The position numbers and the translations under genes were made by a program. A model generated the notes under the pieces. That model was not told the DNA's origin and made no database searches. It saw only the letters and a list, made by a program, of their open reading frames with translations. This document shows, piece by piece, positions 43,979 through 50,374 of a stretch of 64,000 bases of DNA; the stretch's first letter is position 1; the number at the start of each line of letters is the position of its first letter. Source of the DNA: Selenomonas ruminantium AC2024 (GTDB taxonomy: Bacteria; Bacillota; Negativicutes; Selenomonadales; Selenomonadaceae); contig NZ_JIAC01000001.1 of assembly GCF_000687995.1 (NCBI RefSeq), positions 1,922,001 to 1,986,000 of the forward strand, read 5' to 3'.

Positions 43979-44122
43979 AAAAAGAAAAGACTCTCAAAAA
44001 TGAGAGCCTTTCATCTTCACTCTCATCTTATAGGCTTTGCCTAAAGGAATTGGCACCGTTTCGCTTTTGCGATGGTTGCCGCAGCTTCATTGGGCCTATC
44101 CCTCCACTGCTCTGGATGAGTT
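43979..44122 (-). promoter_or_regulatory. SAM-I riboswitch (S-box) of metK
   Basis: Aptamer about 44022-44120, minus strand. Conserved S-box blocks: CTCATC (P1 5'), CAGAGCAGTGGAGGGA, GGCCC-ATGAAGC, GGCAACC, GGTGCCAATTCC, and GATGAGAG closing P1. A terminator, GGCTCTC-attttt-GAGAGTC then TTTTCTTTTT, follows at 43979-44010. CTCTCAT of the terminator can instead pair with ATGAGAG of P1 as an antiterminator, so SAM should turn metK off. Confidence 0.96.
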
Positions 44123-44206: not shown

Positions 44207-44839
44207 TTACTGTCCGTCGCGATTCAGCAGGAAATTCTTGCGGATAATCATTTCGATGCTGTTGCCTTTTACGGAAACTTTTATATCATCCGCAATATTG
44301 GCCACGATGGATTTTTCCAATTCGTCGAGCAGGTCATCAATGGCTTCGTCGTCGCCTTTTTCTTTTTGTTCCTGTACGTCCTGACGGTACTGCTGCAGGG
44401 ACCACATGTAAATATCGGCGATGACCACGCCACCCATGCCCATGGCCTGAGAGTCACCAACGGCTACCGAGGCACCATCCCGCATATTGTACATGCTGTC
44501 CTCGATGAAGTCCTTGATTTTTCCCATGATGCCGACAGAGGCTTCATTGCGCTGCTGGGTCGAAGCGGAGATGAGCTCCTGCTTCTTGTCGTAATCCATG
44601 GGAGCTTCCGCCTGAAGATGCAGTTCACAGTTGCATTCCGGCGTACTTTCCATCCAAAAACTTGCGGAAAACTCATCCACGATGGCGCGCACCATGCTCA
44701 TGGTTTCTTCAGCCAGCAGCCGGGCACGCCGGGCGCTGCGCTCGTCAAAGCCCATGAGGCGGCTGAAATCTTCCACTTCATCCAGCGCGTATTCCATGCC
44801 ATAGCCGCGGCTGTTCACCTTTATTTTGCTGGTTTTCAT
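44207..44839 (-). CDS. Degenerate RsbW/HATPase-like protein, last gene of the partner-switching operon
   Basis: 210 residues. The region about 30-75 reads like the start of a HATPase_c_2 (RsbW) domain (FDERSARRARLLAEETMSMVRAIVDEF, then a CNCELHLQAEAP strand), but the Asn of the N box is replaced (EETMSMVR) and no DxGxP G1 box is visible. Residues 85-150 form an insertion of helices (NEASVGIMGKIKDFIEDSMYNM), and the tail resembles the last strands (IADDIKVSVKGNSIEMIIRKNF). It probably cannot bind ATP and may act as a decoy or scaffold. It lies 11 bases after the STAS gene. Confidence 0.6.
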   Translation of the reverse strand: MKTSKIKVNSRGYGMEYALDEVEDFSRLMGFDERSARRARLLAEETMSMVRAIVDEFSASFWMESTPECNCELHLQAEAPMDYDKKQELISASTQQRNEASVGIMGKIKDFIEDSMYNMRDGASVAVGDSQAMGMGGVVIADIYMWSLQQYRQDVQEQKEKGDDEAIDDLLDELEKSIVANIADDIKVSVKGNSIEMIIRKNFLLNRDGQ

Positions 44840-44850
44840 AGAACCACCCC

Positions 44851-45150
44851 TTAGTCTTCAATCGTAAGGAAATCGATGAAGCCGGTCATTTCCAATACAT
44901 CCTTGACGTCCTTATTGACATGGGTGAGCTTCATGAAGCCCTGTTTCTTCATGCGCTTCTGGGCCAGCAGTAATACCCTGAGGCCGGCGGAAGCCACATA
45001 TACCAAATCTGTAAAGTCCAGCGTCAATTCCGTAACACCAGCCAGTTCATTTTGTACGACCTTGTCCAAATCCGGAGCCGTAACGGCATCCAGGCGTCCG
45101 GACAGGGAAATTTTCAGCACCGGGCCATTTTGTTCTTTTTTGATTTCCAT
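44851..45150 (-). CDS. STAS-domain anti-sigma-factor antagonist
   Basis: 99 residues, a complete RsbV/SpoIIAA-type STAS domain. GPVLKISLSGRLDAVTAPDLDK, then LTLDFTDLVYVASAGLRVLLLAQKRM: the phosphorylatable Ser is in VASAGLR (the DS/AS-x-G-LR motif). The unphosphorylated form should bind an RsbW-type kinase; phosphorylation by that kinase and dephosphorylation by the SpoIIE enzyme upstream would switch it. It lies 73 bases after the phosphatase gene. No sigma factor gene is near. Confidence 0.9.
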   Translation of the reverse strand: MEIKKEQNGPVLKISLSGRLDAVTAPDLDKVVQNELAGVTELTLDFTDLVYVASAGLRVLLLAQKRMKKQGFMKLTHVNKDVKDVLEMTGFIDFLTIED

Positions 45151-45223
45151 AGAGAAGTCTCCCTTCGCTTGCTTATAGCAGTTACTATTTTTAATATTTC
45201 GCGTTATGTATGCTTATTTCCTG

Positions 45224-47815
45224 CTAGGATATATTTTTTCGTATTGTTAGAACGTTTTTTCCTTTCTCATAGGCATATGTTACTTCATCCACATTCTTTT
45301 TCACCAGGAAAATGCCCCAGCCGCCAATCTTTCTGTCCTCCAGCAGCATCTCCGGGTCCGGGTCATCCCGGTCCAGCGGATTATAGGGAATGCCTTCATC
45401 CTGAAAGATTAGTTCAATGCTCTTGGGAGAATTTGTCACTTTGGCCTGAATAACAGCCTGGCCGTGCTTGTCTTCATAGGCATAGCTGGCGATGTTGACA
45501 AAGATTTCCTCCACAGCCAGTTCCAGCTGTAACTGTTCTTTCGGCGATGGTTCCAGCGAAGAGAGCTGTTCTTCGACAAATTCATTGATCTGTGTAAGAT
45601 TCTCCACCTGGGCTCCCACTATAATTTCCCTGGCTGTATCTGCTTCCATTATTTCGCCCCTTTCCGGTTGACCGCTATAGGAGAGCGCCAGCATGGTGAT
45701 ATCGTCTGACTGTTCAGCCTCTCCTACGTGTTTCTGTAAATCTTGCTGCACATGTTGTTGAATCTCTTTTAAGGGCATATCATCTGCCTGCATTTCGTTC
45801 AAGCACTTCAGCAGGCGTTCTTCCCCGTAGAGTTCCTCGTCTTCACTCAGGGCTTCCGTTACCCCGTCCGTGTAGAGGAACAGTTTATCTCCTGGCTCTA
45901 AGGTCAGTTCCTGACCGACATAATCCAATTCGTCCATGCCTCCCATCACGAAGTTCCGCTTTACATCCATATAGGCAAATTTCTTCTCCTTATGGCGGTA
46001 GACAAGCGGCGGATTGTGTCCAGCATTCACATAGACAAATTTGCCTGTGACAACATCAAGCATGCCGACAAAGGCCGTCACAAACATCATGGCGTCGTTG
46101 TTCTGGCAAAGCTGGTCATTGGTACAGGATACCACTGCGGCCAAATCGCTTTCCCCCGTCATGGTCAGGGCAAAGTTCTTGAGGATGGTCTTGGAAATTA
46201 CCATAAAGAGAGCGGCTGGTACACCTTTGCCGGAAACATCGGCAATGGTGATGACCACATGGTTTTCATCGAGCATGTAGAAATCGTAGAAATCACCGCC
46301 GACTTCTTTGGCAGCATGCATGGTGGCGTAAATGTCAAAATCAAGCCGCTCCGGGAATGGCGGGAAGATATTCGGGAGCATGCTTTCCTGAATATTGGTG
46401 GCTACGTTGAGCTCCGTGGCAATGCGCTCCTTCTCCGCCGTGACCTTGGTCAGATTCTTCATATAGCTCTGCAGTTCATCGGTCATGGCGTTGAAGCAGA
46501 TAGACAGATGCTCGATTTCGTCACCGGTTTTAATATCCAGCTTCTTGTCGAGGTTGCCGCTGGCAATCTCGCGCACACCGTCTGACAAGTCAAGAATGGG
46601 ATGGACAAAGCGGTCCCCCATGCGCCGCCCCTGCCAGGTCACAGCCGCGATAATCAGCAGAATCAACGCCGCCATAGCTAAGATGACCTTGGTCATATAA
46701 GCGTCCATGCTGTCCACGTTTTTCTGGGCAATGGCCAGTACATCCTGCCGGGCCGCTTCTTCGGTTTTGAGGACTTCGGCACTGTCCAAAGCCGCGGCAA
46801 AGCTCCAGCCGGTCTGCGGCACCGGTGCAAAGGCCAGATAATATGTTTTATCGGCGATGTTTACAGCGCGGACGCCCTTGTCACCCTGCGTCATGACGCT
46901 TATCGCTGCTGCCAGTTCCTTGTCGGCCGATTGGCGCAGGTCCGTTTCCGGATTTATCTGCCGAAGCATCCCCGTATCGTCTTTGTAAAAAATCATGCGC
47001 CCGTCATCATCAATGACAAAGCAGGTCTGTGCCTGGGCATTTAAGACGAGATTGCTGATATTGTTCAGATAGGTGGACATGGCCACAACACCGGCAAAGT
47101 TGCCCTGCACCTTATAGGGCATCGTGCAGGCAATGCGCAGCTTGCCATTGAAACTGTCGGCGTAAACATCGGTGAAGGTGGTCTTGCCCTGCTCTTTGGC
47201 CAGCTTGTACCAGGGACGGCTCGTGCCGTCAAAGGGCAGCGGCGCAGCAGCTTCCGGGGAGGCAAAACGCTCCGCCGAATCCGCATCTACGGAAATGGAA
47301 TAGCCATGCTCCGAGGCTGCGGTGATGGCGGTTCCTTCCCCATTCATCTGGGCCACCTGCATCATAATGTCCTGCAGATTAGCGACCAGTCCGACTTCTC
47401 CCTGCAAGGCTGCCCTGTCGGCCCAGGAAGCATATTCGAGCTGGGCCGCAAATTTTCCGGCATTATCCCGCCGGGGTTCATCCACATGACGCGGATGAAA
47501 CTCGCCTGCATGTTCATGAATCCAGCTGAGCTCATTTCCCATGAGTTCGGTGCGGTCAGCAATGCGCCGCAGCTCCAGATTGATATAGCGGGATTTTTCA
47601 TCCGCCAGCATCAGCAGACGGCTTTCCGCCTCATGCTTCAGGGTACTGCTGACGGTCTGGGCAGCTTCTTCACCCATTTCCCGGCCATCCTGCAGGGAGG
47701 TGTTCCGTGCACCCAGCATGCCCAAAAGGGCAATGCCTCCCAAGAGTAACAGGGAAACCACACTGCATAAAAACAACAGCCGCTGTACCTGCTGGCGAAT
47801 ACTTCTCCTCTTCAT
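45224..47815 (-). CDS. Membrane sensor SpoIIE-type phosphatase with a C-terminal RsbW-like ATPase domain
   Basis: 863 residues. TM helix about 12-34; an extracytoplasmic double-Cache-like sensor (about 40-365); a second TM (about 372-392, ILAMAALILLIIAAVTW); HAMP (about 395-450); a PP2C/SpoIIE phosphatase (about 490-690) with VGGDFYDFYML, DVSGKGVPAALFM, NAGHNPPLVY and YTDGVTEA intact; and a C-terminal HATPase (about 725-863) with N box LAVEEIFVNIASYAY, G1 DEGIPYNPLD and G2 GGWGIFLVKK. So one protein carries both the phosphatase and a likely kinase of the STAS protein encoded next. Start ATG 47815 is 4 bases past the epimerase stop. Confidence 0.88.
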   Translation of the reverse strand: MKRRSIRQQVQRLLFLCSVVSLLLLGGIALLGMLGARNTSLQDGREMGEEAAQTVSSTLKHEAESRLLMLADEKSRYINLELRRIADRTELMGNELSWIHEHAGEFHPRHVDEPRRDNAGKFAAQLEYASWADRAALQGEVGLVANLQDIMMQVAQMNGEGTAITAASEHGYSISVDADSAERFASPEAAAPLPFDGTSRPWYKLAKEQGKTTFTDVYADSFNGKLRIACTMPYKVQGNFAGVVAMSTYLNNISNLVLNAQAQTCFVIDDDGRMIFYKDDTGMLRQINPETDLRQSADKELAAAISVMTQGDKGVRAVNIADKTYYLAFAPVPQTGWSFAAALDSAEVLKTEEAARQDVLAIAQKNVDSMDAYMTKVILAMAALILLIIAAVTWQGRRMGDRFVHPILDLSDGVREIASGNLDKKLDIKTGDEIEHLSICFNAMTDELQSYMKNLTKVTAEKERIATELNVATNIQESMLPNIFPPFPERLDFDIYATMHAAKEVGGDFYDFYMLDENHVVITIADVSGKGVPAALFMVISKTILKNFALTMTGESDLAAVVSCTNDQLCQNNDAMMFVTAFVGMLDVVTGKFVYVNAGHNPPLVYRHKEKKFAYMDVKRNFVMGGMDELDYVGQELTLEPGDKLFLYTDGVTEALSEDEELYGEERLLKCLNEMQADDMPLKEIQQHVQQDLQKHVGEAEQSDDITMLALSYSGQPERGEIMEADTAREIIVGAQVENLTQINEFVEEQLSSLEPSPKEQLQLELAVEEIFVNIASYAYEDKHGQAVIQAKVTNSPKSIELIFQDEGIPYNPLDRDDPDPEMLLEDRKIGGWGIFLVKKNVDEVTYAYEKGKNVLTIRKNIS

Positions 47816-47819
47816 CGCC

Positions 47820-48626
47820 CTACCCCTTTCCTATATTCAGCGAATACCGTCTGTCATCCGTGCTGACCTGACCGGATATCCTGCCCTCTGTCACCATTTC
47901 TCCCTTACGCCAAATCTGGGCGCGAATAATCTGTCCTGACGGCTGGCCGATGGGAATATCCACATTTTTCCCCGTGAGAAATGAGACGGCAAGTCCTGCG
48001 GCCACAGTACCGCTGCCGCAGGCACTTTCGCAAATCATAGTATCCACTGCCGCTACTCTGACACAGGGAACAATGCGGCGCCGACCTTTGTCCTTTGTCA
48101 CAAAGATTACGCCTGCCGCCGGTTCCTGCATCAAATCCAGCACCTGCAGAATCCTTACGGCCTGCTCTTTTATATTCGACGGCGACAGGCCTTGTACCTG
48201 CTTTTTATGGCAGGGCATAATTACCTGCACGATTCCCGGCAGGCGTACCAAAAAGAAATCCTCGCGGGCCTCTACCAGTTCATGAATCCTGTGGGGGCCG
48301 AGCATCTGGGCATAGACTTCGCCGCTCAGTGTCCGACCAGCCTTTAAGGCATGGCCGCCTGTGCCGGATACTTCCATTTTCAATTCGCCAGCCCTGTCCG
48401 CTAAATAAAAACTTGCCGCTGCCCGCAGGGCATTGCCGCAGAACTCGCCTCCCGCCATTAAAAGCTGCGTTTTTTTGCTGCTTAAAAAGCCCACCTGCTC
48501 GACCTGTGGGTGCAGCTTCATAATCTGGCGGGCCACAAGCCGCCGCTTTTGTGCATCCTGCTCCAAGGGCAGCACCAGGGCGGTGTCATTGCCGCTTGGA
48601 CTGTATATCTGGTAGCTGTACTTCAT
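47820..48626 (-). CDS. DapF-fold amino-acid epimerase/racemase (substrate unknown)
   Basis: 268 residues. It matches the diaminopimelate-epimerase fold: the GND motif in SPSGNDTALVLP, the first catalytic Cys in GGEFCGNALRAAASF (about C63), and the second in ESACGSGTVAAGL (about C203). Both cysteines needed for two-base racemisation are present. It differs from housekeeping DapF (NADGS...CGNGxRC) and is closer to the histidine-racemase-like branch, as in CntK of staphylopine synthesis (by motif only). It overlaps the MATE gene by ATGA and precedes the phosphatase by 4 bases, so it belongs to this operon. Confidence 0.75.
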   Translation of the reverse strand: MKYSYQIYSPSGNDTALVLPLEQDAQKRRLVARQIMKLHPQVEQVGFLSSKKTQLLMAGGEFCGNALRAAASFYLADRAGELKMEVSGTGGHALKAGRTLSGEVYAQMLGPHRIHELVEAREDFFLVRLPGIVQVIMPCHKKQVQGLSPSNIKEQAVRILQVLDLMQEPAAGVIFVTKDKGRRRIVPCVRVAAVDTMICESACGSGTVAAGLAVSFLTGKNVDIPIGQPSGQIIRAQIWRKGEMVTEGRISGQVSTDDRRYSLNIGKG

Positions 48627-50374
48627 TTTGGGCCACGCTTTCCTATCGTTACTATGGTGGTATTAAAGCCCAGAATACGGGCATATTCAATCTTCGTGGT
48701 CAGTTTGCGCACCATGAGCAGGCCAGAAAATTCTTCGCCCTGCTCATCAAGAAAATGCACGGGATTAAAGGGCTTGCCTGCATCCCGCACCTTTACCACA
48801 ATCTCGCTCATGGGCTGCTCCTGCAGACGCAAGAATACGTCGATATGGCCATTCGTGCCCAAACCGCCATGTTCGGCAATATTGACGCAAAGTTCCTCTA
48901 CGGTCACCTGTGCCGCATAAGATTGACGGGAATCCAAATCCGCAAAGCGGGCGCAAAATTCTTCCACGGCCTCGGCGGCCTCTGTGGCGGCTTCCACCGT
49001 AGCGGAAATGCTCGTTTCCCATACCGCAGAATTCTTTTCCTGCTGCATGAGGAGGAAACTATCCCGTCCCATCTTTCTGGCCTGCCGCCGCATATACCAG
49101 ACGAGCCAGCCGATAGCTGCAACGGCGGAAATGGCTGGTGCTGCCCACATAAGTACAAGGCTGAACTTGGATAGCAGGAAGAACAGACCAATCACCAGCA
49201 CGACACCTTCGAGCAAGGAGAAGATGGTAGCTGCTTTCTCCTGACGGGTGGCCTGATAAAAGGCTCGCAGAATAAACACATGAGCCAGCAGCAGCATATA
49301 GATAATGCTCGTGCGCAGGTAGAGAATAAGTTCCGGCGTGATGTTTTCCACGCCATAGAAGCGGATAAACTCCGCAGGAAAAATGAATATCAGCAGGAAA
49401 ATCACCAGACACAGGCCAAAGGTCAGGCGCAGGGACCGCTTTAATACCTGCAGAACACCCTTCTGGTCCATTTCCCCGTAAAGAGCGCCGCAGACACTGG
49501 CAAGCGCTGTGCTGGAGCCATCGGCAAACATCAAAGCGTAGAGCAACGCTGCATTGCAGAGGGAAACGGTCAGTGCCCCCATATCTCCCAAAGTTTCCAC
49601 GGCAATACCATTGACTGCCAGATTGCGCAACACGAGTCCCAAGGGAATCATGGCCATGGGCAGCCCCACCGCCATCACCCGACGAAAAATCCGCTGGTTA
49701 TCGGCAGGAATGGCAGTCAAATGCCAGCTTCTGTCGGGACGGCGCAGATACGGTATGAGAAGCAACAAAGAACAGACGTAACCTGCACCCGTGGCCCAGC
49801 CCGCGCCGGCAATTCCCCAGCCAAAGACCGCAATGAAGAGATAGTCAAAGGCCAGATTGCAGATATTGGCCACGACGGGAATCGCAATGGCCAGTTTGTG
49901 CAGGCCCTCGAGCCGCAGAAAAGAGGACACGCCATTGGTTAAGATGAGCAACGGCCCTGTGAGCCACAAAGGCAGCAGATAATCTGCCACCGCTTCCTGC
50001 AATGAACTGTTCCCGGCCAGCAGGCTCGCCGTAGGCGATAAGAGCAAACAGCCGATGATGCCTAAAACCGTCATTGCTGCCGCGCCCCAGGCAATGGAAA
50101 TGGTAAAGACCCGGGCACATGAAACCTTATCGCGGGCGCCAATAAATTGCGCTGCTAAGACAGCGCCGCCATCCACAAAGAGAAAGAAGAGTATATTGCG
50201 GGCATAGTAAACAGGTAACGTCAGATTGATAGCGGCAAATGCCGCCGGACTGATGAGCTGGCTCACCAGTATCCCGTCTACAATGGAGGCCAGATACAGG
50301 GAAACAATGAAGCCCATGGTAGAGCCAAGATATTCCATATACTTTTGCTGAACCAAAACACCATTGCGCTCCAT
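48623..50374 (-). CDS. MATE-family transporter fused to a C-terminal RsbW-like ATPase domain
   Basis: 583 residues. About 1-440 is a MATE/NorM-type transporter: LISPAAFAAINLTLPVYYARN, LPLWLTGPLLILTNG, ILRAFYQATRQEKAAT, about 12 hydrophobic segments. About 450-583 is a cytoplasmic HATPase_c_2 domain with N box VTVEELCVNIAEHGG, G1 VRDAGKPFNPVH, and a weak G2 (FSGLLMVRKL). The frame is continuous, so this is a true fusion. It suggests that export is tied to the partner-switching proteins encoded downstream. It starts the operon; no convincing promoter could be fixed in the 130 bases upstream. Confidence 0.85.
   Translation of the reverse strand: MERNGVLVQQKYMEYLGSTMGFIVSLYLASIVDGILVSQLISPAAFAAINLTLPVYYARNILFFLFVDGGAVLAAQFIGARDKVSCARVFTISIAWGAAAMTVLGIIGCLLLSPTASLLAGNSSLQEAVADYLLPLWLTGPLLILTNGVSSFLRLEGLHKLAIAIPVVANICNLAFDYLFIAVFGWGIAGAGWATGAGYVCSLLLLIPYLRRPDRSWHLTAIPADNQRIFRRVMAVGLPMAMIPLGLVLRNLAVNGIAVETLGDMGALTVSLCNAALLYALMFADGSSTALASVCGALYGEMDQKGVLQVLKRSLRLTFGLCLVIFLLIFIFPAEFIRFYGVENITPELILYLRTSIIYMLLLAHVFILRAFYQATRQEKAATIFSLLEGVVLVIGLFFLLSKFSLVLMWAAPAISAVAAIGWLVWYMRRQARKMGRDSFLLMQQEKNSAVWETSISATVEAATEAAEAVEEFCARFADLDSRQSYAAQVTVEELCVNIAEHGGLGTNGHIDVFLRLQEQPMSEIVVKVRDAGKPFNPVHFLDEQGEEFSGLLMVRKLTTKIEYARILGFNTTIVTIGKRGPK

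Follow-up and report, generated by a model that had tools for sequence, protein, structure and literature searches.

A candidate partner-switching circuit with a MATE transporter as its putative output in Selenomonas ruminantium AC2024

The window analyzed here, a stretch of 64,000 nucleotides of Selenomonas ruminantium AC2024 (contig NZ_JIAC01000001.1, positions 1,922,001 to 1,986,000) and part of a 2.83 Mb single-contig genome, contained at positions 44207-50374 a cluster of five open reading frames (ORFs) on the minus strand, encoding, in this order, a MATE-family transporter with an RsbW-type domain at its C-terminus, a racemase, a SpoIIE-type phosphatase fused to an RsbW-type kinase domain, a STAS protein and a fifth protein. 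Partner switching is best known as a way to release sigma factors, alongside a few other outputs. By its predicted domains, the cluster works like a partner switch in which three of the defining parts are present and the linked sigma factor is missing. We give an even chance to the reading that it is a partner-switching circuit with a transporter as output instead of a sigma factor, for which we infer phosphorylation, docking, direction and product.

Domain composition of the five-gene cluster

The order of the ORFs and their spacing agreed with an earlier note on this DNA, which had listed an ATGA overlap and gaps of 4 and 11 bases; the features are as follows (aa, amino acids).

48623..50374, minus strand: MATE-family transporter with C-terminal RsbW-type HATPase_c_2 domain, 583 aa (ORF, Pfam)
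48653..49009, minus strand: RsbW-type domain of the MATE protein, residues 456-574, with E494, N498, D531-x-G533 and G551 kept (Pfam, alignment)
47820..48626, minus strand: cofactor-independent racemase/epimerase of CntK/HisR type, 268 aa, with Cys in the two catalytic places and Glu at C-2 and C-3 (NCBIfam, alignment)
45224..47815, minus strand: dCache-HAMP-SpoIIE phosphatase fused to RsbW-type kinase domain, 863 aa (ORF, Pfam)
46796..47290, minus strand: dCache_1 sensor match, residues 176-340 (Pfam)
45680..46267, minus strand: SpoIIE/PP2C phosphatase domain, residues 517-712 (Pfam)
45236..45613, minus strand: RsbW-type kinase domain of the SpoIIE protein, residues 735-860, with N-box, D-x-G and GGxG kept (Pfam, alignment)
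44851..45150, minus strand: single-domain STAS protein, 99 aa, with VASAGL motif (Pfam, NCBIfam)
44207..44839, minus strand: pseudo-RsbW (fifth protein), 210 aa, modelled with an RsbW/SpoIIAB fold that includes a helical insertion; N-box Asn and D-x-G absent (AlphaFold model, alignment)

In the SpoIIE protein, Pfam identified dCache_1 (E 8.3e-19), HAMP (5.6e-10), SpoIIE PF07228 (2.4e-49) and HATPase_c_2 (1e-20) domains. The N-box Asn, D-x-G and GGxG of the kinase domain were invariant in 9/9 aligned kinases of the SpoIIE-linked type (chosen from those found), and a profile of these nine kinases matched Bacillus RsbW in the PDB at E 1.4e-6. The kinase was fused to SpoIIE only in this genome and in the related genome G011; at other loci where it was found, it was a separate gene, usually of about 140 aa. 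The STAS protein matched Pfam STAS (E 3.3e-14) and exceeded the cut-off of TIGR00377, the anti-sigma-antagonist model (70.7 bits against 53.45), and the Ser in its VASAGL motif, S54, corresponds to the position phosphorylated in RsbV/SpoIIAA. The complete kinase/phosphatase/STAS module described in the earlier note was thus recovered as matches to HATPase_c_2, SpoIIE and STAS. When the dCache domain was compared by eye with the published pocket for autoinducer-2 (AI-2) or amino acids (R126, W128, Y144, D146, D173; PMC9540692, which, like the other papers cited, is represented here by excerpts), the R-x-W and Y-x-D positions were present and Ser stood at the place of D173.

The MATE protein matched MatE PF01554 in two stretches (78.6 bits, cut-off 24.9, E 5.5e-22) and scored 121 bits with TIGR00797, under the cut-off of 147.4, and its C-terminus matched HATPase_c_2 (50.9 bits, cut-off 27.4, E 2e-13); a kinase-like domain is therefore physically part of the transporter, as had been proposed. 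Neither SLC5 nor HisKA, by which a CbrA-type protein would be recognized, was detected in the MATE protein at E 1 by Pfam, and a PDB search with its RsbW-type domain gave nothing useful. The two clear HATPase_c_2 matches in the genome were the MATE-fused and SpoIIE-fused domains of the cluster; a third, in a 522-aa frame, was borderline (27.3 bits alone and 27.7 with its neighbours, cut-off 27.4), and four others were weaker. As an internal control, SpoIIE or STAS genes lay within 8 kb of 0/10 other MatE-matching genes of the genome, versus 1/1 for the fused gene.

The fifth protein gave no meaningful match with Pfam, and its alignment with the kinases by hhalign had a probability of 2.6%. Its AlphaFold model, built from 18 sequences, had a mean predicted local distance difference test score (pLDDT) of 72.9 and a predicted template modelling score (pTM) of 0.69, with weak regions at residues 88-102 and 122-137. 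Foldseek ranked SpoIIAB, UsfX and RsbW as the top matches of this model (best E 0.023), and VIA-align superposed it on RsbW 6m36_G with a Z score of 11.3 and a root-mean-square deviation of 2.3 over 104 residues, followed by UsfX (Z 11.1), SpoIIAB (10.5), SiaB (9.8) and then histidine kinases (5.6 or less); matches to these first four families spanned Z 9.7-11.3. Neither the N-box Asn nor the D-x-G motif was visible by eye in 18 aligned homologues. The candidate explanation that the fifth protein is unrelated to RsbW, to which the profile probability had pointed, was overturned by the predicted fold, which bore out the degenerate RsbW-like protein of the earlier note, without support from sequence. 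The protein is best called a pseudo-RsbW with a predicted RsbW/SpoIIAB fold, probably inactive. Its relatives came in 11 of 18 named loci from Selenomonas ruminantium. A 410-aa protein with a C-terminal STAS domain lay about 5 kb from distant pseudo-RsbW copies at two loci (L070:14527-15759 and L074:1373-2605), and the copy at L074 was split over two frames.

The best NCBIfam matches of the racemase were CntK (63.4 bits, cut-off 300) and HisR (59.6 bits, cut-off 400), both far under the equivalog cut-offs. Alignment with 6l4l and 6jis showed the two catalytic Cys residues, and by position there was a Glu two residues before the first Cys and another three residues before the second, which are the positions proposed in the excerpted HisR study to bind histidine (PMC11602996). 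Of the earlier description as a DapF-fold epimerase, the racemase/epimerase with two Cys residues stood, while identity with DapF was rejected, the scores being under all DapF cut-offs (14 of 34.7 bits with PF01678 and 20.7 of 114.65 with TIGR00652) and the nearest families being CntK and HisR. A staphylopine-type opine metallophore locus was also rejected; no CntL-like or CntM-like gene was present among the five genes, to which this search was limited.

The MATE and racemase genes overlapped by ATGA, and the subsequent gaps were 4 (racemase-SpoIIE), 73 (SpoIIE-STAS) and 11 bases (STAS-fifth protein); from this spacing we infer that the five genes form one operon. A promoter scan found no sigma-70-like promoter in the 159 bases upstream of the MATE gene; overall it gave 5 sites, versus 6.7 expected. 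The upstream neighbour of the cluster was RibF, followed by a terminator-like site at 50528-50504, and the downstream neighbour was metK, preceded by an S-adenosylmethionine (SAM) riboswitch (44020-44122, minus strand, 88.4 bits). No sigma factor was found near the cluster, in agreement with the earlier note; the closest Sigma70_r2 match in the genome was about 308 kb away.

Conservation among relatives and the wider class of fusions

The conservation sample consisted of 60 genomes, namely its own, 21 of the genus, 15 of the family and 23 of the class. The intact five-gene set occurred in 2/60 genomes, this one and G011, in which the five proteins were 94-100% identical. A fixed five-gene system was therefore rejected, and the interpretation in the earlier note was to that extent only partly supported. 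In module A (MATE-RsbW and SpoIIE), the SpoIIE gene lay within 810 bases of the MATE gene in 6/6 close homologues (61-98% identity), following the racemase in four of them and the MATE gene directly in two (G004 and G017). The racemase was absent from the latter two, and in other lineages of the genus and in other genera a GNAT-like protein stood in its place. The presence of the racemase, or of its replacements, points to a product derived from amino acids.

In module B, the STAS and pseudo-RsbW genes were adjacent in 12/12 genomes (own included) that had a fifth-protein homologue of at least 67% identity; distant pseudo-RsbW copies (G013 C17, G017 C8, G022 and G023) had no adjoining STAS gene. 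A protein of about 620 aa, here called X, was encoded directly before module B in 9 of the 12 genomes, with a kinase intervening in G005, and X-STAS-pseudo-RsbW stood between RibF and MetK in six (G003, G006, G007, G009, G016 and G020). The MATE, racemase and SpoIIE genes of G003 formed one run, with the STAS/pseudo-RsbW pair elsewhere. In G004 and G017, a single run held MATE, SpoIIE, kinase, X, STAS and pseudo-RsbW without a racemase, and S. ruminantium S137 (L197) also carried a long run with X. In this genome, X was located outside the window (G000:C1:2010271-2012130), and in G016 it was split over two frames. X had a Condensation domain (E 6e-23 for the G003 copy), and its end weakly resembled a cNMP-binding domain; because the G003 copy lacked the H-x-x-x-D-G motif, X may have no condensing activity. 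The AlphaFold model of X was poor (pLDDT 40.2) and was not used. In comparison with G003, the RibF-side terminator (score 62, best shuffle 38) and the metK side (378, best shuffle 51) were conserved; no shared DNA was detected before STAS (29, best shuffle 40).

Gene neighbourhoods were collected for 51 MATE homologues, 47 of which came from a family search. The search gave 54 match rows, of which seven were excluded, namely that of the window itself (close to G011) and six with partial or short frames (G078, G166, G141, G150, G070 and G140); it scored up to eight candidates per genome, or up to four in the phylum sample, and the counts are lower bounds. Frames of at least 550 aa, indicating a C-terminal extension, were present in 49 homologues, a number defined by length in which the extensions were not each scored as RsbW-type and four members (L077, L078, L159 and L160) show little of the extension; L172 and L188, which were shorter than 550 aa, account for the step from 51 to 49, and L213 (453 aa, no extension) was left out. 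Related genomes were counted separately, nearly all belonged to a single family, and in several cases the contig stops inside the 8-kb span. Enzymes that modify peptides or amino acids were encoded within 8 kb in 31/49 homologues, comprising the overlapping types nonribosomal peptide synthetase (NRPS; 11), GNAT-like (8), ATP-grasp (6), condensation-domain protein (5) and racemase (4). The link between the transporter and amino-acid chemistry drawn in the earlier note was thus supported, for amino-acid or peptide chemistry, by these fusion-type homologues, nearly all of one family. The NRPS label rests on one protein checked by Pfam (condensation, AMP-binding, carrier and thioesterase domains), the others being BLAST-matched to that or another NRPS; "GNAT-like" denotes one member above the Pfam cut-off and its homologues; and one ATP-grasp protein matched a dapdiamide synthase model, far under the cut-off.

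SpoIIE, STAS or kinase genes occurred within 8 kb of 16/49 MATE homologues; no switch gene was credited to L079, although its contig breaks off in the sensor region of a SpoIIE-like protein. Neither enzyme nor switch genes were found for 15/49, six of which share a gene cluster, ProB/ProA-like in L168. This cluster was shared by MATE-RsbW proteins of L168, L173-L176 and L183, and by gene sizes only of L179 and L184; the L168 neighbours were identified by Pfam as amino-acid kinase, NlpC/P60 and aldehyde-dehydrogenase (ProB/ProA-like), and those of the other loci by clustering. In the phylum sample, at least 6/299 genomes had a match at E 1e-25. Two of these (G188 and G305, of one genus in another class, with MATE proteins 97% identical) encoded STAS, MATE-RsbW, dCache-SpoIIE and a 479-aa protein, with STAS and SpoIIE immediately adjoining the MATE fusion, and are included in the 16; a kinase gene follows in G305 and was not found in G188. 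In L185, L186, L211 and L212, the STAS and MATE genes were at most 5.2 kb apart. Neither the 479-aa genes (L211/L212) nor the 602-aa gene (L185) matched Pfam, and BLAST of these against X, STAS-condensation and GNAT-like proteins gave nothing useful. In a MATE-domain tree (a single FastTree run, midpoint rooted, groups set by hand, support values not shown), the switch-linked proteins were scattered over several separated groups. In another class, a GH3-family gene (PF03321) adjoined a MATE-RsbW fusion (L225:3349-4461).

Related arrangements were found with other proteins. In L219 of this genome, a STAS gene and a gene for a SpoIIE protein resembling that of the window preceded the following gene.

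L219:7452-9068 (G000:C1, about 1590451-1592067): RsbW-like-SDF symporter fusion, behind STAS and SpoIIE genes

Residues 11-125 of this 538-aa protein matched the kinase profile (E 2.8e-6), with motifs that were degenerate by eye, and the rest was an SDF symporter. A second locus of this genome (L220:2626-7998) held STAS, SpoIIE, a STAS-APH fusion and a second SDF symporter in one run; the N-terminus of this symporter resembles the RsbW-like domain by eye only, the profile finding none at E 1e-3. Additionally, STAS was fused to a Condensation domain in eight loci (L227-L234) of six relatives, with two of the fusions checked by Pfam; the fusions keep H-A-I/L-M-D-G. The next gene encoded a 573-576-aa protein in 5/8 of these loci (three were checked, with MatE present and the RsbW-type end weak or unmatched) and a 1207-1210-aa protein in 3/8 (one was checked and was an NRPS module). 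In these last three loci a SpoIIE gene lay just upstream, and in L233 a MATE protein with HATPase_c_2 above the cut-off follows. The eight loci were found via STAS and were excluded from the neighbourhood counts of the 49.

Proposed mechanism and competing explanations

In the proposed circuit, the dCache domain would sense an extracellular signal, which would determine how far the SpoIIE phosphatase outweighs the RsbW-type kinase joined to it, or the reverse, and thereby whether STAS is phosphorylated at S54. In one of its two states, STAS would dock on RsbW-fold domains, namely the cytoplasmic C-terminus of the MATE protein and the fifth protein, which is probably inactive. By docking on the MATE domain, STAS would open or close the export of a small compound derived from amino acids and made with the help of the racemase, and the fifth protein could be a competing sink or an adaptor for STAS.

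The role assigned to the MATE domain was considered using an alignment of 47 MATE-fusion sequences, in which L163 was placed under "other" and L211, L212 and L233 were left out. The N-box Asn and D-x-G were both retained in 14/47 sequences: by hand-set group, 7/12 NRPS-linked, 0/6 ATP-grasp-linked, 3/14 other and 4/15 switch-linked sequences (window included). A non-MATE kinase gene or domain was present within 8 kb in 11/16 switch-linked loci. Because the motifs were kept in few switch-linked proteins and another kinase was available in most of these loci, the MATE domain more probably receives STAS than acts as its main kinase; its kinase role across homologues is uncertain. In L163 (L163:6260-9235), a STAS-APH fusion lay 10 bases upstream of a MATE-RsbW fusion, and both motifs were kept in the MATE domain.

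In favour of the proposed circuit are the domains and their motifs, the predicted fold of the fifth protein, the SpoIIE gene close to MATE in all six close homologues, the STAS and SpoIIE genes beside a MATE fusion in another class, the switch genes near 16/49 fusion-type homologues as opposed to 0/10 other MatE-matching genes, the scatter of switch-linked proteins in the tree, the SDF and STAS-condensation fusions and the lack of a linked sigma factor. Several observations weigh against it. The STAS/pseudo-RsbW pair stood apart from the MATE genes in three genomes (G003, G006 and G009), the MATE domains of these same genomes had lost the N-box Asn, and eight GNAT-group sequences had lost both the N-box Asn and D-x-G; a kinase role of the MATE domain is unlikely in these genomes and in the GNAT group because of these losses. 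Furthermore, 5/16 switch-linked loci, G188 included, showed no separate kinase within 8 kb, and 33/49 MATE homologues had no switch gene within 8 kb, though some contigs end early.

Control might also run from the transporter to the switch, in a CbrA-like manner: the MATE protein would be a sensor whose RsbW-type domain reads substrate occupancy or flux and alters the phosphorylation of STAS, and STAS and the pseudo-RsbW would relay the signal to another target. Sensor-type transporter-kinase fusions are known (CbrA and SLC5/STAC kinases, according to the excerpts), and the MATE domain of the window retains E494, N498 and D531-x-G533. However, the cluster already has a dCache sensor and a kinase with intact motifs, and the loss of the N-box Asn and/or D-x-G in 11/15 switch-linked MATE domains fits a receiver better than an enzyme; we regard this direction of control as rather improbable, and likewise the relay to another target. 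A similarly low probability was assigned to two independent modules, in which STAS/pseudo-RsbW serves X or some other target and the MATE-racemase-SpoIIE cassette merely replaced X here. The X-STAS-pseudo-RsbW order between RibF and MetK in six relatives, the conservation of both flanks relative to G003 and the position of X elsewhere in this genome are in line with such a replacement, whereas the single runs of G004 and G017, which unite MATE, SpoIIE and kinase with X, STAS and pseudo-RsbW, and the proximity of STAS to MATE in L185, L186, L211 and L212 speak for a connection.

An ordinary sigma-factor partner switch, acting through an unlinked RsbW and sigma factor with incidental neighbours, is very unlikely. 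Six Sigma70_r2 matches in the genome exceed the cut-off, and several further SpoIIE/STAS modules are present. One Sigma70_r2 match (G000:C1:2508772-2508966) lies about 700 bases from the STAS gene at 2507784-2508080 (L221), with two SpoIIE genes, and L221 may represent a sigma-factor switch of the classical kind. Set against this, the closest sigma factor is distant from the cluster, and both clear HATPase_c_2 matches of the genome belong to the cluster; since the SDF-fused domain of L219 escaped the HATPase_c_2 search, the genome may encode further RsbW-like proteins.

Beyond the window, we tentatively suggest, at a little short of even chances, that these bacteria use partner switching generally, as a plug-in means of regulating transport and peptide synthesis without transcription. 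With comparable reserve, RsbW-fold domains on MATE and SDF transporters and STAS domains on NRPS condensation domains would let dCache-SpoIIE proteins gate synthesis, uptake and export.

Comparison with known systems

If RsbW domains on transporters and STAS domains on NRPSs are indeed outputs, they would represent an overlooked, fast, protein-level control of secretion and natural-product synthesis in rumen anaerobes. As the parts of the cluster are small and can be separated, binding and phosphorylation lend themselves to direct tests. Among the openly licensed PMC papers listed by our searches, judged by title and the beginning of the abstract, none described a MATE or SDF transporter that carries an RsbW-type domain, a STAS-condensation fusion or such a gene set.

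In the Pseudomonas SiaA/B/C/D system, the output is a diguanylate cyclase. The SpoIIE protein scored 103.8 bits with SiaA (cut-off 700) and the fold of SiaB matched that of the fifth protein (Z 9.8), but no diguanylate cyclase is present among the five cluster genes. Indigoidine is an NRPS product. In Vogesella indigofera, an organism without an RsbV homologue, the receiver-RsbW protein TciR affects indigoidine production through its RsbW-like domain (PMC12826045); as is proposed for the cluster, an RsbW-like domain is linked to product synthesis, whereas TciR, as excerpted, has a receiver and no transporter fusion. BtrU/BtrV/BtrW of Bordetella is a partner switch acting on type III secretion (PMC8256260), which resembles our proposal in having a secretion process as its target and differs in the kind of secretion and, in the excerpt, in having no RsbW-transporter fusion. 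SypE of Vibrio fischeri carries kinase and phosphatase on one polypeptide, as does the cluster, and sets the state of the STAS protein SypA, which acts below transcription (PMC10120452); SypE has a receiver domain and an N-terminal kinase, in contrast to the dCache-HAMP and C-terminal kinase of the cluster, and the excerpt describes no transporter fusion.

CbrA and the SLC5/STAC histidine kinases, which likewise combine a transporter and a kinase-type domain in one polypeptide, are described in the excerpts as sensors; these have an SLC5 symporter, a histidine kinase and a response regulator, whereas the cluster has a MATE transporter, an RsbW-type domain and STAS. The racemase shares with CntK and HisR the two catalytic Cys residues and, by position, the Glu residues discussed above; it differs in its scores, 63 and 60 bits where the cut-offs are 300 and 400, and in the absence of staphylopine genes among the five. 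In comparison with RsbU/RsbV/RsbW and SpoIIE/SpoIIAA/SpoIIAB, the cluster lacks a linked sigma factor, carries an RsbW-type domain on a MATE transporter, has its kinase and phosphatase fused and includes one RsbW copy without catalytic motifs; it shares with them a SpoIIE-type phosphatase, a single-domain STAS protein with the Ser residue, an RsbW-type kinase and, in the fifth protein, a predicted RsbW fold.

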